Of a stretch of DNA of 64,000 nt, positions 19,470-56,762 are shown piece after piece. The stretch is from assembly GCF_039830135.1 (NCBI RefSeq), contig NZ_CP156081.1, forward strand, positions 3,830,001-3,894,000. Reading direction: 5' to 3'. Position numbers and translations under genes: made by a program. This DNA is from Defluviimonas sp. SAOS-178_SWC (GTDB lineage Bacteria > Pseudomonadota > Alphaproteobacteria > Rhodobacterales > Rhodobacteraceae). The notes beneath the pieces are model-generated. The model searched no databases. It had not been told where the DNA came from and saw only the letters and a list, made by a program, of their open reading frames with translations. How positions within the stretch are numbered: position 1 is the stretch's first letter; each line of letters opens with the position of its first letter.

Positions 19470-19566
19470 CGAGAGGTTGGCGCGGGCGAGCGCCTCGCCA
19501 ACCCGGTCAGGTCCGGAAGGAAGCAGCCGTAACGAGCCCCGCTTGGGTCGTTGTCCAGCCTCTCAC
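19470..19566 (+). ncRNA. ffs: Signal recognition particle RNA (4.5S, small bacterial type)
   Basis: The conserved domain IV is unmistakable: GGTCAGGTCCGGAAGGAAG then CAGCC at 19505-19527, with the GGAA tetraloop and the asymmetric internal loop that binds Ffh. The terminal stem pairs GAGAGGTTGG (19471-19480) with CCAGCCTCTC (19555-19564), ten pairs including one G-U. Exact ends are estimated from this stem, giving about 97 bases, the normal length in alphaproteobacteria. It lies alone between the phosphatase and rsgA; the remainder of 19359-19723 holds no gene I can see. Confidence 0.95.
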
Positions 19567-19723
19567 CCGCAACCCCATCCGCGAAGGAGTCGAACATGGC
19601 AGAGCTTGTTTCCCTCCGGGCCGGGGTTTGCTGAGACCTTAAGCTGCCCCGCCCCTCCCGACATTTCCCGCCCGCGGCCAAGGCCGCCGGGCATCGGTAT
19701 CGGCATATCCCGAGGGCAGATCA

Positions 19724-30292: not shown

Positions 30293-31102
30293 TCAAGGCT
30301 TGAGGAACTTCGCCCCGCCCGCCTTGGTGTTCTGCGAAAGCTGCGCCCCGAAACCCGGCGTCACCTTCTTGAACGTCCGTTCCTCGACCGCATAGGCCGC
30401 GCGAAGCTCCGCCAGCGGCTCGGTCATCGCGGTCCCGAGGGCGACCGGCTTGCTGTCCATCTCCGCCTTCGCCGAGACCACCGAGACGATGCTCGGGACG
30501 CCGTTGCGGATCGAGAATATCGGCGCGCCGGACGATCCGAAATCAACCGAGCAGGTCATCACTAGAATGCCGGGCTGCCGCCCCAGCACTTCGCAGGCTT
30601 TCTGGAGCGACGGTGCCTCCGACCGCTCGAGCGCATAGGAGACGATGCCGACCGTGTCGCCCTGCATCGGATCGGCGCCGATCTCGAACGGCTGAACCGA
30701 CGGCAGCCGGATCGGCTGGTCGAGCTCGAGGAGCGCGAGATCGTAGGCCACCCGGTCCATCCGGTCGCGGCCCTCATAGGCGTAATCGGGATGGCTGACG
30801 GTCCGCGTGACGCCACGATAGGCGACCGCGCGGCCATTGCGCCAGCCGGCAAGGAACTTGAAATCCGCCGGATCGTGACGAACCCCGCTCGTCTGGTCGT
30901 AGAGGCAATGCGCGGCCGTCAGGACGAGTGACGGCGTGATCAGCGCCCCGGTGCAAAACGCCGATCGGCCGATATCGATGCGCCCGACCGCTTCCCATCC
31001 GCGCGTTTCGTCGGCCGTCGTCAGCGCCGTCAAGGCGGTATCCTGCGCCGCCGTGCCGAAGGGCACGGTCGCCAGAATCATCGCCGCCAGAAATGCCCGC
31101 AT
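30293..31102 (-). CDS. Secreted trypsin-like serine protease
   Basis: A 269-residue S1-family protein. Signal peptide: MRAFLAAMILATVPFGTAAQ. The catalytic triad is visible: His in LTAAHCLY, Asp in YDLALLEL and Ser in DFGSSGAPIF. Cysteine pairs (FCTGAL/AAHC and others) suggest disulfides and periplasmic or external action. GGAGGG lies right before the ATG at 31102; the longer frame to 31147 is not supported. Substrate unknown. Single gene, upstream of the glc operon's end on the same strand. Confidence 0.88.
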   Translation of the reverse strand: MRAFLAAMILATVPFGTAAQDTALTALTTADETRGWEAVGRIDIGRSAFCTGALITPSLVLTAAHCLYDQTSGVRHDPADFKFLAGWRNGRAVAYRGVTRTVSHPDYAYEGRDRMDRVAYDLALLELDQPIRLPSVQPFEIGADPMQGDTVGIVSYALERSEAPSLQKACEVLGRQPGILVMTCSVDFGSSGAPIFSIRNGVPSIVSVVSAKAEMDSKPVALGTAMTEPLAELRAAYAVEERTFKKVTPGFGAQLSQNTKAGGAKFLKP

Positions 31103-53132: not shown

Positions 53133-53836
53133 CGGTCGAACGCCTCGACGACTTCGATACCGACTGACGGCGTGATGCGCACATGATGCTCAGGCACCCG
53201 CATGCCGTCATCGCTTACCAGCCGGCAAACGAACATCGGAGCCGACACATTCACAGTCGAGCCTGCGATCACGGCCTCGCGCAGGGGCGGATCGAATGAC
53301 ACCGCCCCATCCACGTTTTCGACGACGCGGTAAAGGAAGTCATTGATCGAAAAGTAGGCGCCCACCTCAATGTGTCGACCAATGTAGTTCTCCATGTGGA
53401 TGATGCGCGCCCCGGACGGAGCGGCGAAGGCGATGACCGGTTCCGCACTGGTCGGCAACGCCCAACCGGTGCCGTCCGTGAACAGCGTCCCATCAGACCA
53501 AGGCGAATAACCATTCGCGATATCTGTCGCTGAGATGCCAATCTTCGCGAGGAAGTCTGCCTCTGTTGTCTGCAAGCGCGGCGTGAACCTGTTGCAGATC
53601 GGAATGCGGAACCGCCCGAACCTCCCCCTGAGCTGCGCGGCAAGCGCACGAAGCCGCATCGGCTGCGATCCACGCAATGCCGGCAGGCTGAGCGCCCCGC
53701 GCCAAACCCGGTTTTCCCGCCACAGGATTTGCTCGCGACCATCGAGACCGACGCCAGACGACGACGTCGATCCGCTGAGCCAGAGATCTACTACATCGAA
53801 CAGGGGAAGCTCCGACGGCCAGTCAAGGATATTCAT
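53129..53836 (-). CDS. Phage distal-tail protein, unknown function
   Basis: A 235-residue protein, MNILDWPSELPLFDVVDLWL with a later GREQILWRENRVWRGALSLP. It is the first gene after the tape measure, the usual place of the Dit (distal tail) protein; GTA gp12 has the same position. Predominantly beta. The ATG overlaps the tape-measure stop's far side by four bases in a coupled arrangement. Confidence 0.7.
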   Translation of the reverse strand: MNILDWPSELPLFDVVDLWLSGSTSSSGVGLDGREQILWRENRVWRGALSLPALRGSQPMRLRALAAQLRGRFGRFRIPICNRFTPRLQTTEADFLAKIGISATDIANGYSPWSDGTLFTDGTGWALPTSAEPVIAFAAPSGARIIHMENYIGRHIEVGAYFSINDFLYRVVENVDGAVSFDPPLREAVIAGSTVNVSAPMFVCRLVSDDGMRVPEHHVRITPSVGIEVVEAFDR

Positions 53837-55758
53837 CGACGCCGCTGCGCCTCCCGCGCCTGCTTGCTGAACTGGCCGATCTGCGCCGCCGAGACCGCGC
53901 CGCTCACCCGTTCGATCTTCGCCTGAAGAGCGCCGTTATCGTCGAAGAAGACCCGGACATCGACGCCGCCACCGCCGCCGCCGCCCTTGGTGTGATCGAT
54001 GATCGTCTCACGCGGATGAACCATCGCCATGAAGCCGCCCTTGCCGTCGAGACCGCCGGCACGAATCCCCGACCCCGTATATCCGCCACCGTCGGCGCTC
54101 GGGACGCCGAAGGCACCGCCGATGACCCGGCCCAGGATGCCGCCAAGCCCGCCACCACCGGTCAACGGACCGGAACCGAAGAACACATATTCGAGCAGCG
54201 CACGCTTGATCGATTCCTTCAGCGCATCGAAGGCGTCGCCTGCCGTGCGCGCGCCGGAGGCGATGTCGAGGATCCCGTTCTTGAAGCTGTCGAGCTTCTG
54301 CGACTGCAGGTTCTCGTTCAGATCGGCGAGCGCCCTGTTGTAGAGGTCCTGACCGATCTTTCCTTCCTTCAGGAGCCGGACGAGCGTCGCCTTCTCTTCA
54401 TTGTAGCGCTCCAACTCCGTGCGCGTGGACGCGTAGAGCGCCTTCACCTTAGCCAGGTCGGCTGCCTCTTCTGCATTGATGGTGCGTCCACCGACGCCGC
54501 CGCGCGACGAAACCTTCTTCGGCGCGTTGCGGGAGGCGAGCGACTGCTGCGCCGCGTTGCCGCCCGGCGTCCTGCCGCCATAGGCGTTGAGCGCCTGGCC
54601 GCCAGGAGAGTTGCCGAAGGAAAGCTCCTGCAAGCGGTCTTCCGCGGCGATCCGCTGCTGCGCGAGGTCCCATGCCGCCCTGGCCGCGTCGCGGATCGTA
54701 TCGGCGAACCCGGCAGCGGCCGTTTGGGCATGTCCGAACGCCGTCGTTGCGGCATCGATCGCCGCGCCGATGTTGATGGCAGCCCCGGCGATTTTCTCGA
54801 CTTCCGCGAGCAACCTCTGACCTCCGATGACGGAATCGTTCAGCCTCGTGACAAGACCGCCCGTCGCCTGATCTGCGGCCTCCAAGCTGCCGTAGACAGA
54901 AACCAGCGTGTCCCGAAGGCCCTTGAACGCTTCAACCCGTCCGGCCGTGTCGGTGGCGCTTAGAACAGACTGCAGAGCCTGCGCAACCAGGACGGCATCG
55001 GCACCGGTCAGATCCAGGTCTTCGCGGATCCGCCGCAGCGCCTCCTCGTAAGCAGTGGCGCCACCGGCGTCCCGCGTGACGGCATCCAGCGATCCGAACT
55101 GCGCGCCGACACCGGAGGCGACATCCGCGATCTGGCGCTCCGCTGCGTTCCGCTTCAGCCGCTCCTGAATGTCGAGTGCACGTTGTGCCTCGTTTGCGAG
55201 CGATCCATATTCATCTTTGAGATCGGCTGTCCCCTTCAGGGCGAGATCAGCAGCAGAGGCGTAGTCCTTGACGGCAGACGACAGGTTCTTGACCTTGTCC
55301 TCGAGCGTCTCCGCCTTGTCGGCCGCCTCCTCTGACCCCATCGCCATGTTGAAGAAGACGGCCGCCAAAGGCAGGCCGATCGCCGCCACCACGCCCATCA
55401 GCGGCCCGAGCGTCCCGAGCGTGCCACCGAGGGCACCGAGGCCGCCGAGAAGCTGCGGCGCTTGCTGCGACATCGCCCGCATGACCGTCGTGCCGCCTGC
55501 GATCTGAACGGCCAGGTCACCGAACTGGTTCGCGGTGTTCTGGATGACGAAGCGTTGCGCGCCCGTGACATTGCCAAGACGCGCAAGGCCTGTGGCGCTC
55601 TGCGTGAGGCCATCCGTTACCTTCTTGTTCGCCTTCTGGAACTCTGTCTCGATCTTCCGCCCGGCCGCGGCCGCACGCGCCTCCGCCTTCGCGAGCGCGC
55701 GCTCCATCTTGACGATGCGCGCGTCCAGAGCAAAGACGAGTGCCGCTTCGTCAGCCAT
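53833..55758 (-). CDS. Phage tail tape-measure protein
   Basis: A 641-residue protein with an N-terminal coiled coil (MERALAKAEARAAAAGRKIE), a hydrophobic stretch (GPLMGVVAAIGLPLAAVFFNMAM), long helical parts and a glycine-rich C-terminal region. These are the marks of the scaffold that sets tail length. By the rule of about 0.15 nm per residue it would give a tail of roughly 100 nm. It begins within the last bases of the T-chaperone frame. Confidence 0.88.
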   Translation of the reverse strand: MADEAALVFALDARIVKMERALAKAEARAAAAGRKIETEFQKANKKVTDGLTQSATGLARLGNVTGAQRFVIQNTANQFGDLAVQIAGGTTVMRAMSQQAPQLLGGLGALGGTLGTLGPLMGVVAAIGLPLAAVFFNMAMGSEEAADKAETLEDKVKNLSSAVKDYASAADLALKGTADLKDEYGSLANEAQRALDIQERLKRNAAERQIADVASGVGAQFGSLDAVTRDAGGATAYEEALRRIREDLDLTGADAVLVAQALQSVLSATDTAGRVEAFKGLRDTLVSVYGSLEAADQATGGLVTRLNDSVIGGQRLLAEVEKIAGAAINIGAAIDAATTAFGHAQTAAAGFADTIRDAARAAWDLAQQRIAAEDRLQELSFGNSPGGQALNAYGGRTPGGNAAQQSLASRNAPKKVSSRGGVGGRTINAEEAADLAKVKALYASTRTELERYNEEKATLVRLLKEGKIGQDLYNRALADLNENLQSQKLDSFKNGILDIASGARTAGDAFDALKESIKRALLEYVFFGSGPLTGGGGLGGILGRVIGGAFGVPSADGGGYTGSGIRAGGLDGKGGFMAMVHPRETIIDHTKGGGGGGGVDVRVFFDDNGALQAKIERVSGAVSAAQIGQFSKQAREAQRRR

Positions 55759-55891
55759 CTTTGCCGAACCCCTCGATTTCCAATTCTGCCAAGCGCTCGT
55801 CGGTTATGTCGCTGCCGGACGGTGCCCGCTTCTTTCCGCCGTGGAACTCCGAAAGCCCGTCCATGCAGGCGGCGAACTCCCACAGGCTCAT
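55751..55891 (-). CDS. Tail-assembly chaperone T frame (46 codons, expressed by -1 frameshift)
   Basis: From the ATG at 55891 this frame gives 46 residues beginning MSLWEFAACMDG and ending before the TGA at 55751. The frame is open further upstream, and the residues before the Met (WQFSKFYAGGAIAGF, then TPRDVDR) look like authentic coding sequence continuous with it, up to a slippery C CCC CCG at 55963. So the natural product is probably a G-T fusion of 185 residues made by -1 frameshifting from the G gene, as in lambda. The internal ATG overlaps the G stop as ATGA and might allow separate translation. Missed by length cut-offs. Confidence 0.85.
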   Translation of the reverse strand: MSLWEFAACMDGLSEFHGGKKRAPSGSDITDERLAELEIEGFGKDG

Positions 55892-56307
55892 TCGGTCGAC
55901 ATCTCTCGGGGTGAACCCGGCAATGGCTCCTCCTGCGTAGAACTTGCTGAACTGCCACTTTCCGGGGGGCTCAGCTCCCCCGTCGGCTCCCCCACCGGGT
56001 CGTCCTCGACGCCCATGATCGCCGCCGCGAGGACCAAGGTCGCCGTCACCAAGAACCTCGCCACAGGATGCGAGTCGGAAAGTTCGGAGAGGAGCTTCCT
56101 TGCCTCACCGGGCGGCATTCCACCGCCGATCAAACCGTGGCGAAGAACCGCGAACGGCCAGTCGACCCGCCAATGATCGCCGCGCAGACCGTTCAACACC
56201 TGCATGGGTCCGGCGTCGCAGGCATCCTGCACGGCCCTCAGTTCGCCAAGACCGAGGGCGAAGACATGCGCACCCCCGATCCAGTTCAGCTCGACGCGAT
56301 GGCTCAT
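55888..56307 (-). CDS. Tail-assembly chaperone G (GTA gp10-like)
   Basis: A 139-residue protein related to gene transfer agent gp10 (DUF3356): RVELNWIGGAHVFALGLGELRAV, DACDAGPMQVLNGL, LRHGLIGGGMPPGEARKLL. It should coat the tape measure before tail-tube assembly. The last 25 residues after the slippery site are low-complexity Ser/Glu/Pro, as expected for a zero-frame tail that matters less than the frameshifted product. The start at 56307 lies five bases after the tail-tube stop; a TTG at 56316 is an alternative. Confidence 0.85.
   Translation of the reverse strand: MSHRVELNWIGGAHVFALGLGELRAVQDACDAGPMQVLNGLRGDHWRVDWPFAVLRHGLIGGGMPPGEARKLLSELSDSHPVARFLVTATLVLAAAIMGVEDDPVGEPTGELSPPESGSSASSTQEEPLPGSPREMSTE
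55963..55969 (-). promoter_or_regulatory. Programmed -1 frameshift site (C CCC CCG)
   Basis: In the frame of the G chaperone the codons are AGC CCC CCG (codons 113-115). The heptamer fits the X XXY YYZ rule, so both tRNAs can re-pair one base back. After slipping, translation runs GGA AAG TGG and stays open for 70 residues to 55751. Confidence 0.85.
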
Positions 56308-56312
56308 GGCGA

Positions 56313-56762
56313 TCAAGCCTTGTCGGTCGTGGTCGGCGTTCCGTCGAATTCGATACGAACGGTCGCGGTGACCTTCTGGCCCTTGGTGCGGGTGTTGTTG
56401 AGCTGCGTCAGGAGCGCGGGACCAGCTTCATACTCGACATCACCGCTGGCGGCGTTCGCATGCTGCACACGGATGTTGACGGTGGCGCTCGACCGGAACC
56501 ACTGCAAAAGCGTCTCGTGGCTCTGCTGCGCCCAGACCGCCTCGCCCTCGATCGTGTATTCGGTACTGCGCACCTGCTTTTCAACCGAATAGGGCAGGCT
56601 TTCATCGTCGCAGTCCGCGGGCACCTCGACGCGGTCGACCTGCGCCTCGCGATTGTAGCTGAAGCCCATGATGCCACAGAGCTTGGCATAGGTGCCTCCG
56701 CCCGGGGTCGTCTCGACCTCGAGGACGAGCTGCTCATACTTTGCCGTTACGGGCGCTGCCAT
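56313..56762 (-). CDS. Phage major tail (tube) protein
   Basis: A 149-residue protein: MAAPVTAKYEQLVLEVETTP, FSYNREAQVDRVEVPADCDDE and TVRIEFDGTPTTTD. Small beta-sandwich tail tube proteins of this sort polymerise as hexameric rings. Position directly before the G/T chaperones supports it. GGAGAAA lies eight bases upstream. Confidence 0.82.
   Translation of the reverse strand: MAAPVTAKYEQLVLEVETTPGGGTYAKLCGIMGFSYNREAQVDRVEVPADCDDESLPYSVEKQVRSTEYTIEGEAVWAQQSHETLLQWFRSSATVNIRVQHANAASGDVEYEAGPALLTQLNNTRTKGQKVTATVRIEFDGTPTTTDKA

Follow-up and report, generated by a model that had tools for sequence, protein, structure and literature searches.

In a prophage of Defluviimonas sp. SAOS-178_SWC, a tail assembly chaperone of 139 residues, G, and a G-T fusion of 185 residues are, we consider, very probably both made from one gene by −1 programmed ribosomal frameshifting. 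The gene lies on the minus strand of a 64,000-nucleotide stretch of contig NZ_CP156081.1 (positions 3,830,001 to 3,894,000), which we call the window and whose own positions are used throughout. An initial annotation of the window, made from the letters alone, had proposed a −1 frameshift joining chaperones G and T, as in phage lambda, in a gene resembling gp10 of the gene transfer agents (GTAs), and comparison with relatives supports that proposal. It had placed the slip at C CCC CCG, however, and this is probably wrong: the site is most likely a G GGG GAG lying upstream, at 55993-55987. The elements concerned are as follows.

55888..56307, minus strand: G, the zero-frame tail assembly chaperone, 139 residues (PF11836, GTA-gp10, E 6e-16; phrog_8985)
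55751..55987, minus strand: 78 codons of −1 frame between the slip heptamer's end and TGA, with the conserved T domain
55987..55993, minus strand: proposed slip site, G GGG GAG, made up of codons 106-107 (Gly-Glu) and the third base of codon 105
55977..55982, minus strand: 5′ arm of a possible hairpin, CGGGGG, 4 nucleotides past the heptamer
55975..55981, minus strand: second in-phase G GGG GAG, reaching from the 5′ arm into the beginning of the loop
55963..55968, minus strand: 3′ arm, CCCCCG, to which C CCC CCG adds one base
55963..55969, minus strand: C CCC CCG, the site first named, which overlaps the 3′ arm and could serve as a secondary slip site at most
55751..55891, minus strand: 46-residue open reading frame within T, whose ATG overlaps the G stop (ATGA)

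G runs from the ATG at 56307 to a stop ending at 55888, and PF11836 (Phage_TAC_11, GTA-gp10) is the sole Pfam family that it matches, at 58.7 bits and thus above the curated cut-off of 27.8; no NCBIfam match and no solved structural relative was found for it. C CCC CCG does stand in register over codons 113-115 (55969-55963), and reading on from it in the −1 frame gives, just as had been described, 70 residues to a TGA at 55753-55751, which falls inside the start of the tape measure gene (ATG 55758), and a fusion of 185 residues. These 70 residues match phrog_18467 (E 7e-20, positions 2-50 of 50), and the T domain is found in the −1 frame of relatives as well, so the earlier view that the frame is authentic holds. 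What had gone unremarked is that the −1 frame is already open 214 nucleotides ahead of the G stop, well 5′ of C CCC CCG, so that other slip sites are possible, and that two in-register copies of G GGG GAG (55993-55987 and 55981-55975) lie upstream. No ATG, GTG or TTG occurs in the −1 frame upstream of the ATG at 55891. T was expected to be lost to gene calling, and this is true in part: database entries do exist, one being the window's own (P0030) and the other a 41-residue hypothetical protein of Defluviimonas aestuarii in NCBI (P0031), but both begin at the internal ATG and are therefore truncated.

Relatives were collected through G (in IMG/VR through one N-terminal pattern), and hence independently of the slip region, except that the phage records were found with the fusion. 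They comprised the best 80 of 171 IMG/VR relatives, nine regions from ten matching phage records, two Haematobacter contigs and, out of 394 genomes from the same family, the 7 that had a match, the window's own included. From the initial 102 sequences two were dropped with no G on the strand read (L001, which is the window in opposite orientation, and L002, a chance DNA hit), and three (L092-L094) were reversed and then counted. Of the 100 loci read, 99 have T in the −1 frame and one has it fused in frame (L005, 1489-2061, Rhizobium phage RHph_X2_26); the T domain follows G in relatives from IMG/VR, from phage records and from genomes. Removing identical stretches (nine duplicates, the window being present twice) left 90 distinct −1-frame loci, with the window among them and the fused L005 outside. 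A second set, fetched later with Rhizobium-type and Labrenzia-type G, comprised 27 loci, three of them duplicates; of the 24 distinct ones, 22 have T in the −1 frame and two have it fused in frame.

The evidence for the slip site comes from what these loci share. Scoring the first such heptamer inside the open −1 window, an in-phase G GGG GAR, G GGA AAN or A AAA AAN is present in every one of the 90 distinct loci (GGGGGAG in 63, GGGGGAA in 15, GGGAAAG in 6, AAAAAAA in 4, and AAAAAAG and GGGAAAC in 1 each), against 16.5 ± 3.5 expected and a maximum of 27 in 300 synonymous shuffles in which codons were redrawn from the same genes. The same is true of loci below 70% identity (60/60 against 10.3 ± 2.8) and below 50% identity (20/20 against 3.0 ± 1.6). 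In the overlap, GGGGGA falls in phase 2 on 99 occasions and in phase 0 on one, with no instance in phase 1; 80 of the 90 loci have it, the remaining ten having an in-phase G GGA AAN or A AAA AAN. The aligned glycine codon is GGG in 72 of 90, where elsewhere in these genes GGG makes up 339 of 1222 glycine codons and GGC is the commonest (551), and the codon preceding it has G as its third base in 82 of 90, though the amino acid encoded varies. The pattern had been read off these 90 loci and was therefore tested on the loci fetched later: with the set fixed beforehand, the heptamer is found in 22 of the 22 −1-frame loci against 2.7 expected. Identity of their G to the first set is at least 90% in 5 of the 22, 70–90% in 8 and lower in 9, and with the five most similar loci removed the count is 17 of 17 against 2.0 ± 1.3. 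C CCC CCG, in contrast, is found in 10 of the 90 distinct loci and in 6 of the 60 below 70% identity, and so is not conserved where the T frame is kept. Homologues lacking the slippery heptamer, which the initial annotation would have taken as telling against its proposal, are thus the rule for the site that it named; that site fails, and the frameshift survives. Some canonical X XXY YYZ heptamer is present in 31 of 90 loci; canonical heptamers as a class, considered as an alternative signal and set aside, fall in phases 2, 1 and 0 of the overlap 35, 35 and 13 times, and so do not favour phase 2 over phase 1.

A Shine–Dalgarno-like GAGGA lies 9 nucleotides ahead of the heptamer in the window (56003-56007, minus strand). 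Over 60 loci the anti-Shine–Dalgarno duplex ahead of the site has a mean energy of −6.1, compared with −5.2 for synonymous shuffles and −2.8 elsewhere in the gene, which is only suggestive of an upstream stimulator.

Substitutions in the overlap were compared between the frames. In 433 pairs of loci chosen on −1-frame identity, changes are most frequent at −1-frame position 3 (0.228, 0.195 and 0.344). This choice of pairs favours the −1 frame, and the test was repeated with 149 ungapped pairs chosen on the body of G, where zero-frame position 2 has a rate of 0.391 and the other two positions 0.331 and 0.325. Amino acid identity in the same 149 pairs is 0.533 in the −1 frame against 0.460 in the zero frame, the −1 frame being higher in 103 pairs and lower in 29. 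Taken with the phrog_18467 match and the arrangement in relatives, these patterns mark the −1 frame as a real coding frame. They agree with the annotation's impression that the −1 frame looks conserved after the site, though the difference between the frames is modest, as would be expected if both are read.

Just downstream of the heptamer a hairpin can form, and it seems to keep its place while its sequence changes. The best helix starting 3–8 nucleotides past the heptamer has a mean percentile of 0.81 relative to other places in the same locus over 60 loci (0.795 when matched for G+C content; Kolmogorov–Smirnov p 4e-15), against 0.53 for controls offset 60 and 90 nucleotides upstream, where 6 of 120 reach at least 0.95. 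Pairing with other stem sequences is possible in many relatives, not in all: stems at the same place include TGGGGGCG/CGCCCCCG (L016, L020), GCCGGG/CCCGGC (L056), GCGGGAGAGGG/CCCTCTCCCGC (L063), CCGGTG/CACCGG (L064), GCGGCAGCGG/CCGCTGCCGC (L091) and a 13-base-pair stem (L088). In L013 and L014, identical here to the Haematobacter contigs L101 and L100, the run is reduced to C5, so that C CCC CCG is gone while a G5/C5 stem is possible. Covariation was counted in the two groups of equal spacing that fold better, a third having come out gapped on alignment and been left uncounted; in the group of 11 rows, which is ungapped, both sides are changed in 4 of 9 pairs, which none of 500 shuffles matches, and versions of the stem slid along the alignment do worse. 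A search of Rfam at the slip site gave no match up to E 1. Among the Rhizobium-type loci (L141-L157, L162, L164 and L004), several appear to share a long-range stem past the heptamer, with changes on both sides, for example CCAGATC with GATTTGG and GCAAGTC with GATTTGC.

The frames, their conservation, the shared heptamer and the capacity for a hairpin are read from the sequences, and from them we infer how the tRNAs might slip. A ribosome on GUG GGG GAG (55995-55987) would be held by the hairpin at 55982-55963, whereupon the tRNA-Gly on GGG could re-pair with the GGG one base back and the tRNA-Glu(UUC) could move from GAG to GGA, pairing C-G, U.G and U-A. Reading would then resume in the −1 frame as ...DDPVGE-ADGGAEPPGKWQFSKF..., with a predicted junction ...PVGEADGGAEPPGK and junction peptide FLVTATLVLAAAIMGVEDDPVGEADGGAEPPGK; slippage at C CCC CCG would instead give ...PVGEPTGELSPPGK and the junction peptide FLVTATLVLAAAIMGVEDDPVGEPTGELSPPGK. 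By analogy with lambda, G may coat the tape measure protein and the minor G-T form may recruit the major tail protein. A search of the genome turned up 40 tRNA genes, of which one is a tRNA-Glu, with anticodon UUC. A tRNA-Glu(CTC) called by ARAGORN at 30668-30767 of the window (minus strand) might have been a phage tRNA serving the slip codon, but we discarded it: the stretch reads as coding, Rfam reports no tRNA there, and the call is probably false. An additional tRNA pattern search found nothing.

Several observations nonetheless weigh against this account or limit it. The loci share kinship, and the counts are accordingly not numbers of independent events; the heptamer set was selected after the first 90 loci had been viewed; and G GGG GAG differs from the canonical X XXY YYZ. 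The window holds three in-phase candidate sites, so that the slip site in its own phage is deduced from relatives. The tRNA search listed no tRNA-Ile or tRNA-Tyr, and a second tRNA-Glu may thus have been missed. With regard to the hairpin, that of the window is ordinary for its composition (z −0.67 by dinucleotide shuffles), and single loci pass a 5% helix test in just 26 or 24 of 60 cases by two tests, the second being a percentile of at least 0.95. Covariation in a group of 6 rows is weaker, being matched in 5 of 500 shuffles with a −1 slide nearly as good, and pairing in the Rhizobium-type loci is long-range or weak. Consensus folds of the six equal-spacing groups with at least 5 loci range from strong (−14.4) through moderate (−7.9) to four weak ones (−0.8 to −3.7), the window's own group being among the weak (−1.2); this is partly because stems of unlike sequence fail to align by column.

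The alternatives differ in where the fusion would arise and whether it arises at all. It is unlikely, though the least improbable of them, that the frameshift is real and takes place at C CCC CCG, alone or as a second site: this heptamer is canonical, in the correct register and followed by an open −1 frame, yet it is missing from 80 of the 90 loci that keep T, it overlaps the 3′ arm of the hairpin, and canonical heptamers as a class lack a preference for phase 2 over phase 1. Moreover, by ordinary pairing rules a tRNA-Pro(CGG) slipping from CCG to CCC would put C against C at the wobble place; the genome has this tRNA and a tRNA-Pro(TGG) also. Distinctly less probable is that there is no frameshift, and that T is a separate small protein begun at the ATG at 55891 and coupled to G termination through the ATGA overlap, which is where P0030 and P0031 begin and which resembles an overlap in the true GTA of the same genome. 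A start there would leave out the conserved W-x-F-S-x-F-Y stretch, which sits upstream of it; in 89 of 90 loci the segment from the heptamer to the conserved W position (occupied by W in 75) contains no start codon, in 73 the whole open −1 frame ahead of that position has none, and in 81 the position precedes the G stop. Over the G stop itself ATG is found in just 16 of 90 loci, GTG in 15 and TTG in 1. A separately translated T would also leave the heptamer unexplained, and the fixing of its frame at −1 in 99 of 100 loci, against −1, +1 and 0 in 19, 10 and 1 of 30 GTA pairs, would not be expected of it.

That the fusion comes from slippage of RNA polymerase and not of ribosomes is scarcely credible. 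There are G5 and C6 runs in the window and A9 in relatives (L070, L098), but the dependence of GGGGGA on codon phase (99:1:0) fits ribosomes, not polymerase, and most sites have only G5, a run that is short for transcriptional slippage. We give next to no weight to the idea that G and T are one ordinary gene broken by sequencing error or decay. In-frame fusions do exist, namely L005, which lacks the heptamer, and L158 and L163 from the second set, which have A9 in the linker and a −1 frame that soon closes; the relatives nevertheless already refute this idea: 99 of the 100 loci first read show the same −1 arrangement, as do 22 of the 24 distinct loci fetched later. The nine-A linker of L158 and L163 looks as if an insertion or deletion at a former A AAA AAA site had created the fusion. 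Searches of viral contigs with P0027, P0024 and the L005 fusion found no relatives.

Ribosomal frameshifting upstream of the hairpin thus remains the preferred explanation, and a comparison with true GTAs shows how far it extends. The same genome holds a true GTA in which g10 and g10.1 are separate genes with an ATGA overlap (C2:1614361-1614839; L102, L108). The pair in the window does not have the make-up of a GTA tail module: no match to PF09550, the g10.1 family, follows G, and the GTA pair of the genome lies elsewhere. Among the best 30 GTA loci returned of 48 matches in 44 of 61 family genomes, g10.1 is in the −1 frame relative to g10 in 19, +1 in 10 and 0 in 1, and the g10.1 match itself starts with ATG in 17 of 30. 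A slip-like heptamer is seen in 3 of the 19 pairs in −1 relation (L116, L122, L133) and in one in +1 relation (L130); in L133 a GGGGGAA stands in phase just ahead of the g10 stop, and may be a remnant or chance. A constant frame and the heptamer are thus features of the phage family and not of PF11836 as such, the GTA pairs having no fixed frame. G itself is homologous to g10, both being above the PF11836 cut-off and their profiles aligning at E 4e-7. The homology of T to g10.1 is only hinted at: a profile comparison is weak (probability 2.6%, E 0.018 for one comparison), T gave no match to PF09550 up to E 1, and its lone Pfam hint, PF10109 (E 0.096), is under cut-off.

The kind of mechanism is already known from lambda; here it is proposed for the PF11836 family, with a corrected slip site. 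Xu, Hendrix and Duda reportedly described the lambda G / G-T tail chaperone frameshift and many phage counterparts in 2004. PMC5009743 covers the role of lambda G and G-T in tail assembly, and the frameshift and its phage counterparts are treated there and in PMC3483164. As in lambda, the pair lies between the major tail protein and the tape measure, with a short overlapping −1 frame and a fusion expected to be minor; unlike lambda, G belongs to PF11836, the site is mostly G GGG GAG where lambda has G GGA AAG, and a hairpin can form directly downstream. Closer in sequence are the tail chaperones of actinobacteriophages, to which the PRFect paper assigns GGGGGAA sites, proposing that tRNA-Glu re-pairs with GGA through a U.G pair (PMC10885494), and a GGGGGAA-type site has been assigned to corynephage phi16 (PMC5506516). 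The sites described here share with these the five G followed by A in the same register, but the named phages infect mostly alphaproteobacteria, and GGGGGAG (63/90) outnumbers GGGGGAA (15/90), the others being G GGA AAN or A AAA AAN. A study of Rhodobacter capsulatus phages (PMC8601537) describes the frameshift as usual for tail chaperone genes and notes one phage that, unlike most of those it covers, lacks it, so a general expectation of frameshifting exists.

In GTAs, g10 has been called tail chaperone 1 and a tail chaperone 2 has been named g10.5 (PMC11409702); G shares with g10/g10.1 its homology to g10 and the gene order. That paper is the one relevant article found to name PF11836, and a term search of it gives no 'frameshift'. 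A search of an open-licence library found no description of a G/G-T frameshift for the PF11836 family, and the feature tables of the nine phage regions annotate no joined coding sequence; in Rhizobium phage 16-3 the same pair is annotated as p015/p016. The 50-residue family phrog_18467, of unassigned function, is listed as free-standing, whereas here it would be the C-terminal part of a fusion. Pfam, PHROGs and several phage records label the PF11836 family 'tail tube protein', though the gene preceding it is the major tail (tube) protein.

We lean, without great assurance, toward a wider picture in which a mainly alphaproteobacterial family of phages that carry GTA-gp10 chaperones, and that the records examined do not annotate as such, frameshifts at a site of the G GGG GAR class through a middle-position U.G pair of tRNA-Glu, aided by a hairpin whose position and pairing persist as its sequence drifts, and in which GTAs, having short tails of fixed length, would have lost this control and split the chaperones into neighbouring genes in arbitrary frames. 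This would place G/G-T recoding in phage relatives of GTAs whose records, as far as examined, show a 'tail tube protein' with, at best, a fragment of T, and would set them in direct contrast with the domesticated GTAs, which seem to be without it. The more than 100 comparative sites for a non-canonical slip heptamer should be useful for frameshift prediction.

The genes on either side of the pair have the placement expected for G/G-T chaperones, in the order major tail protein, G/T pair, tape measure.

56313..56762, minus strand: major tail (tube) protein, directly 5′ of G (PF06199, phrog_13196)
53833..55758, minus strand: tape measure protein, directly 3′, sharing 8 nucleotides with the T frame (phrog_1538)

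A nucleotide-level search for similar phage DNA found none. Elsewhere in the window, a bacterial small signal recognition particle RNA (RF00169) lies at 19471-19567 on the plus strand, and as this RNA is normally a host gene, that part of the window is probably chromosome and not prophage.

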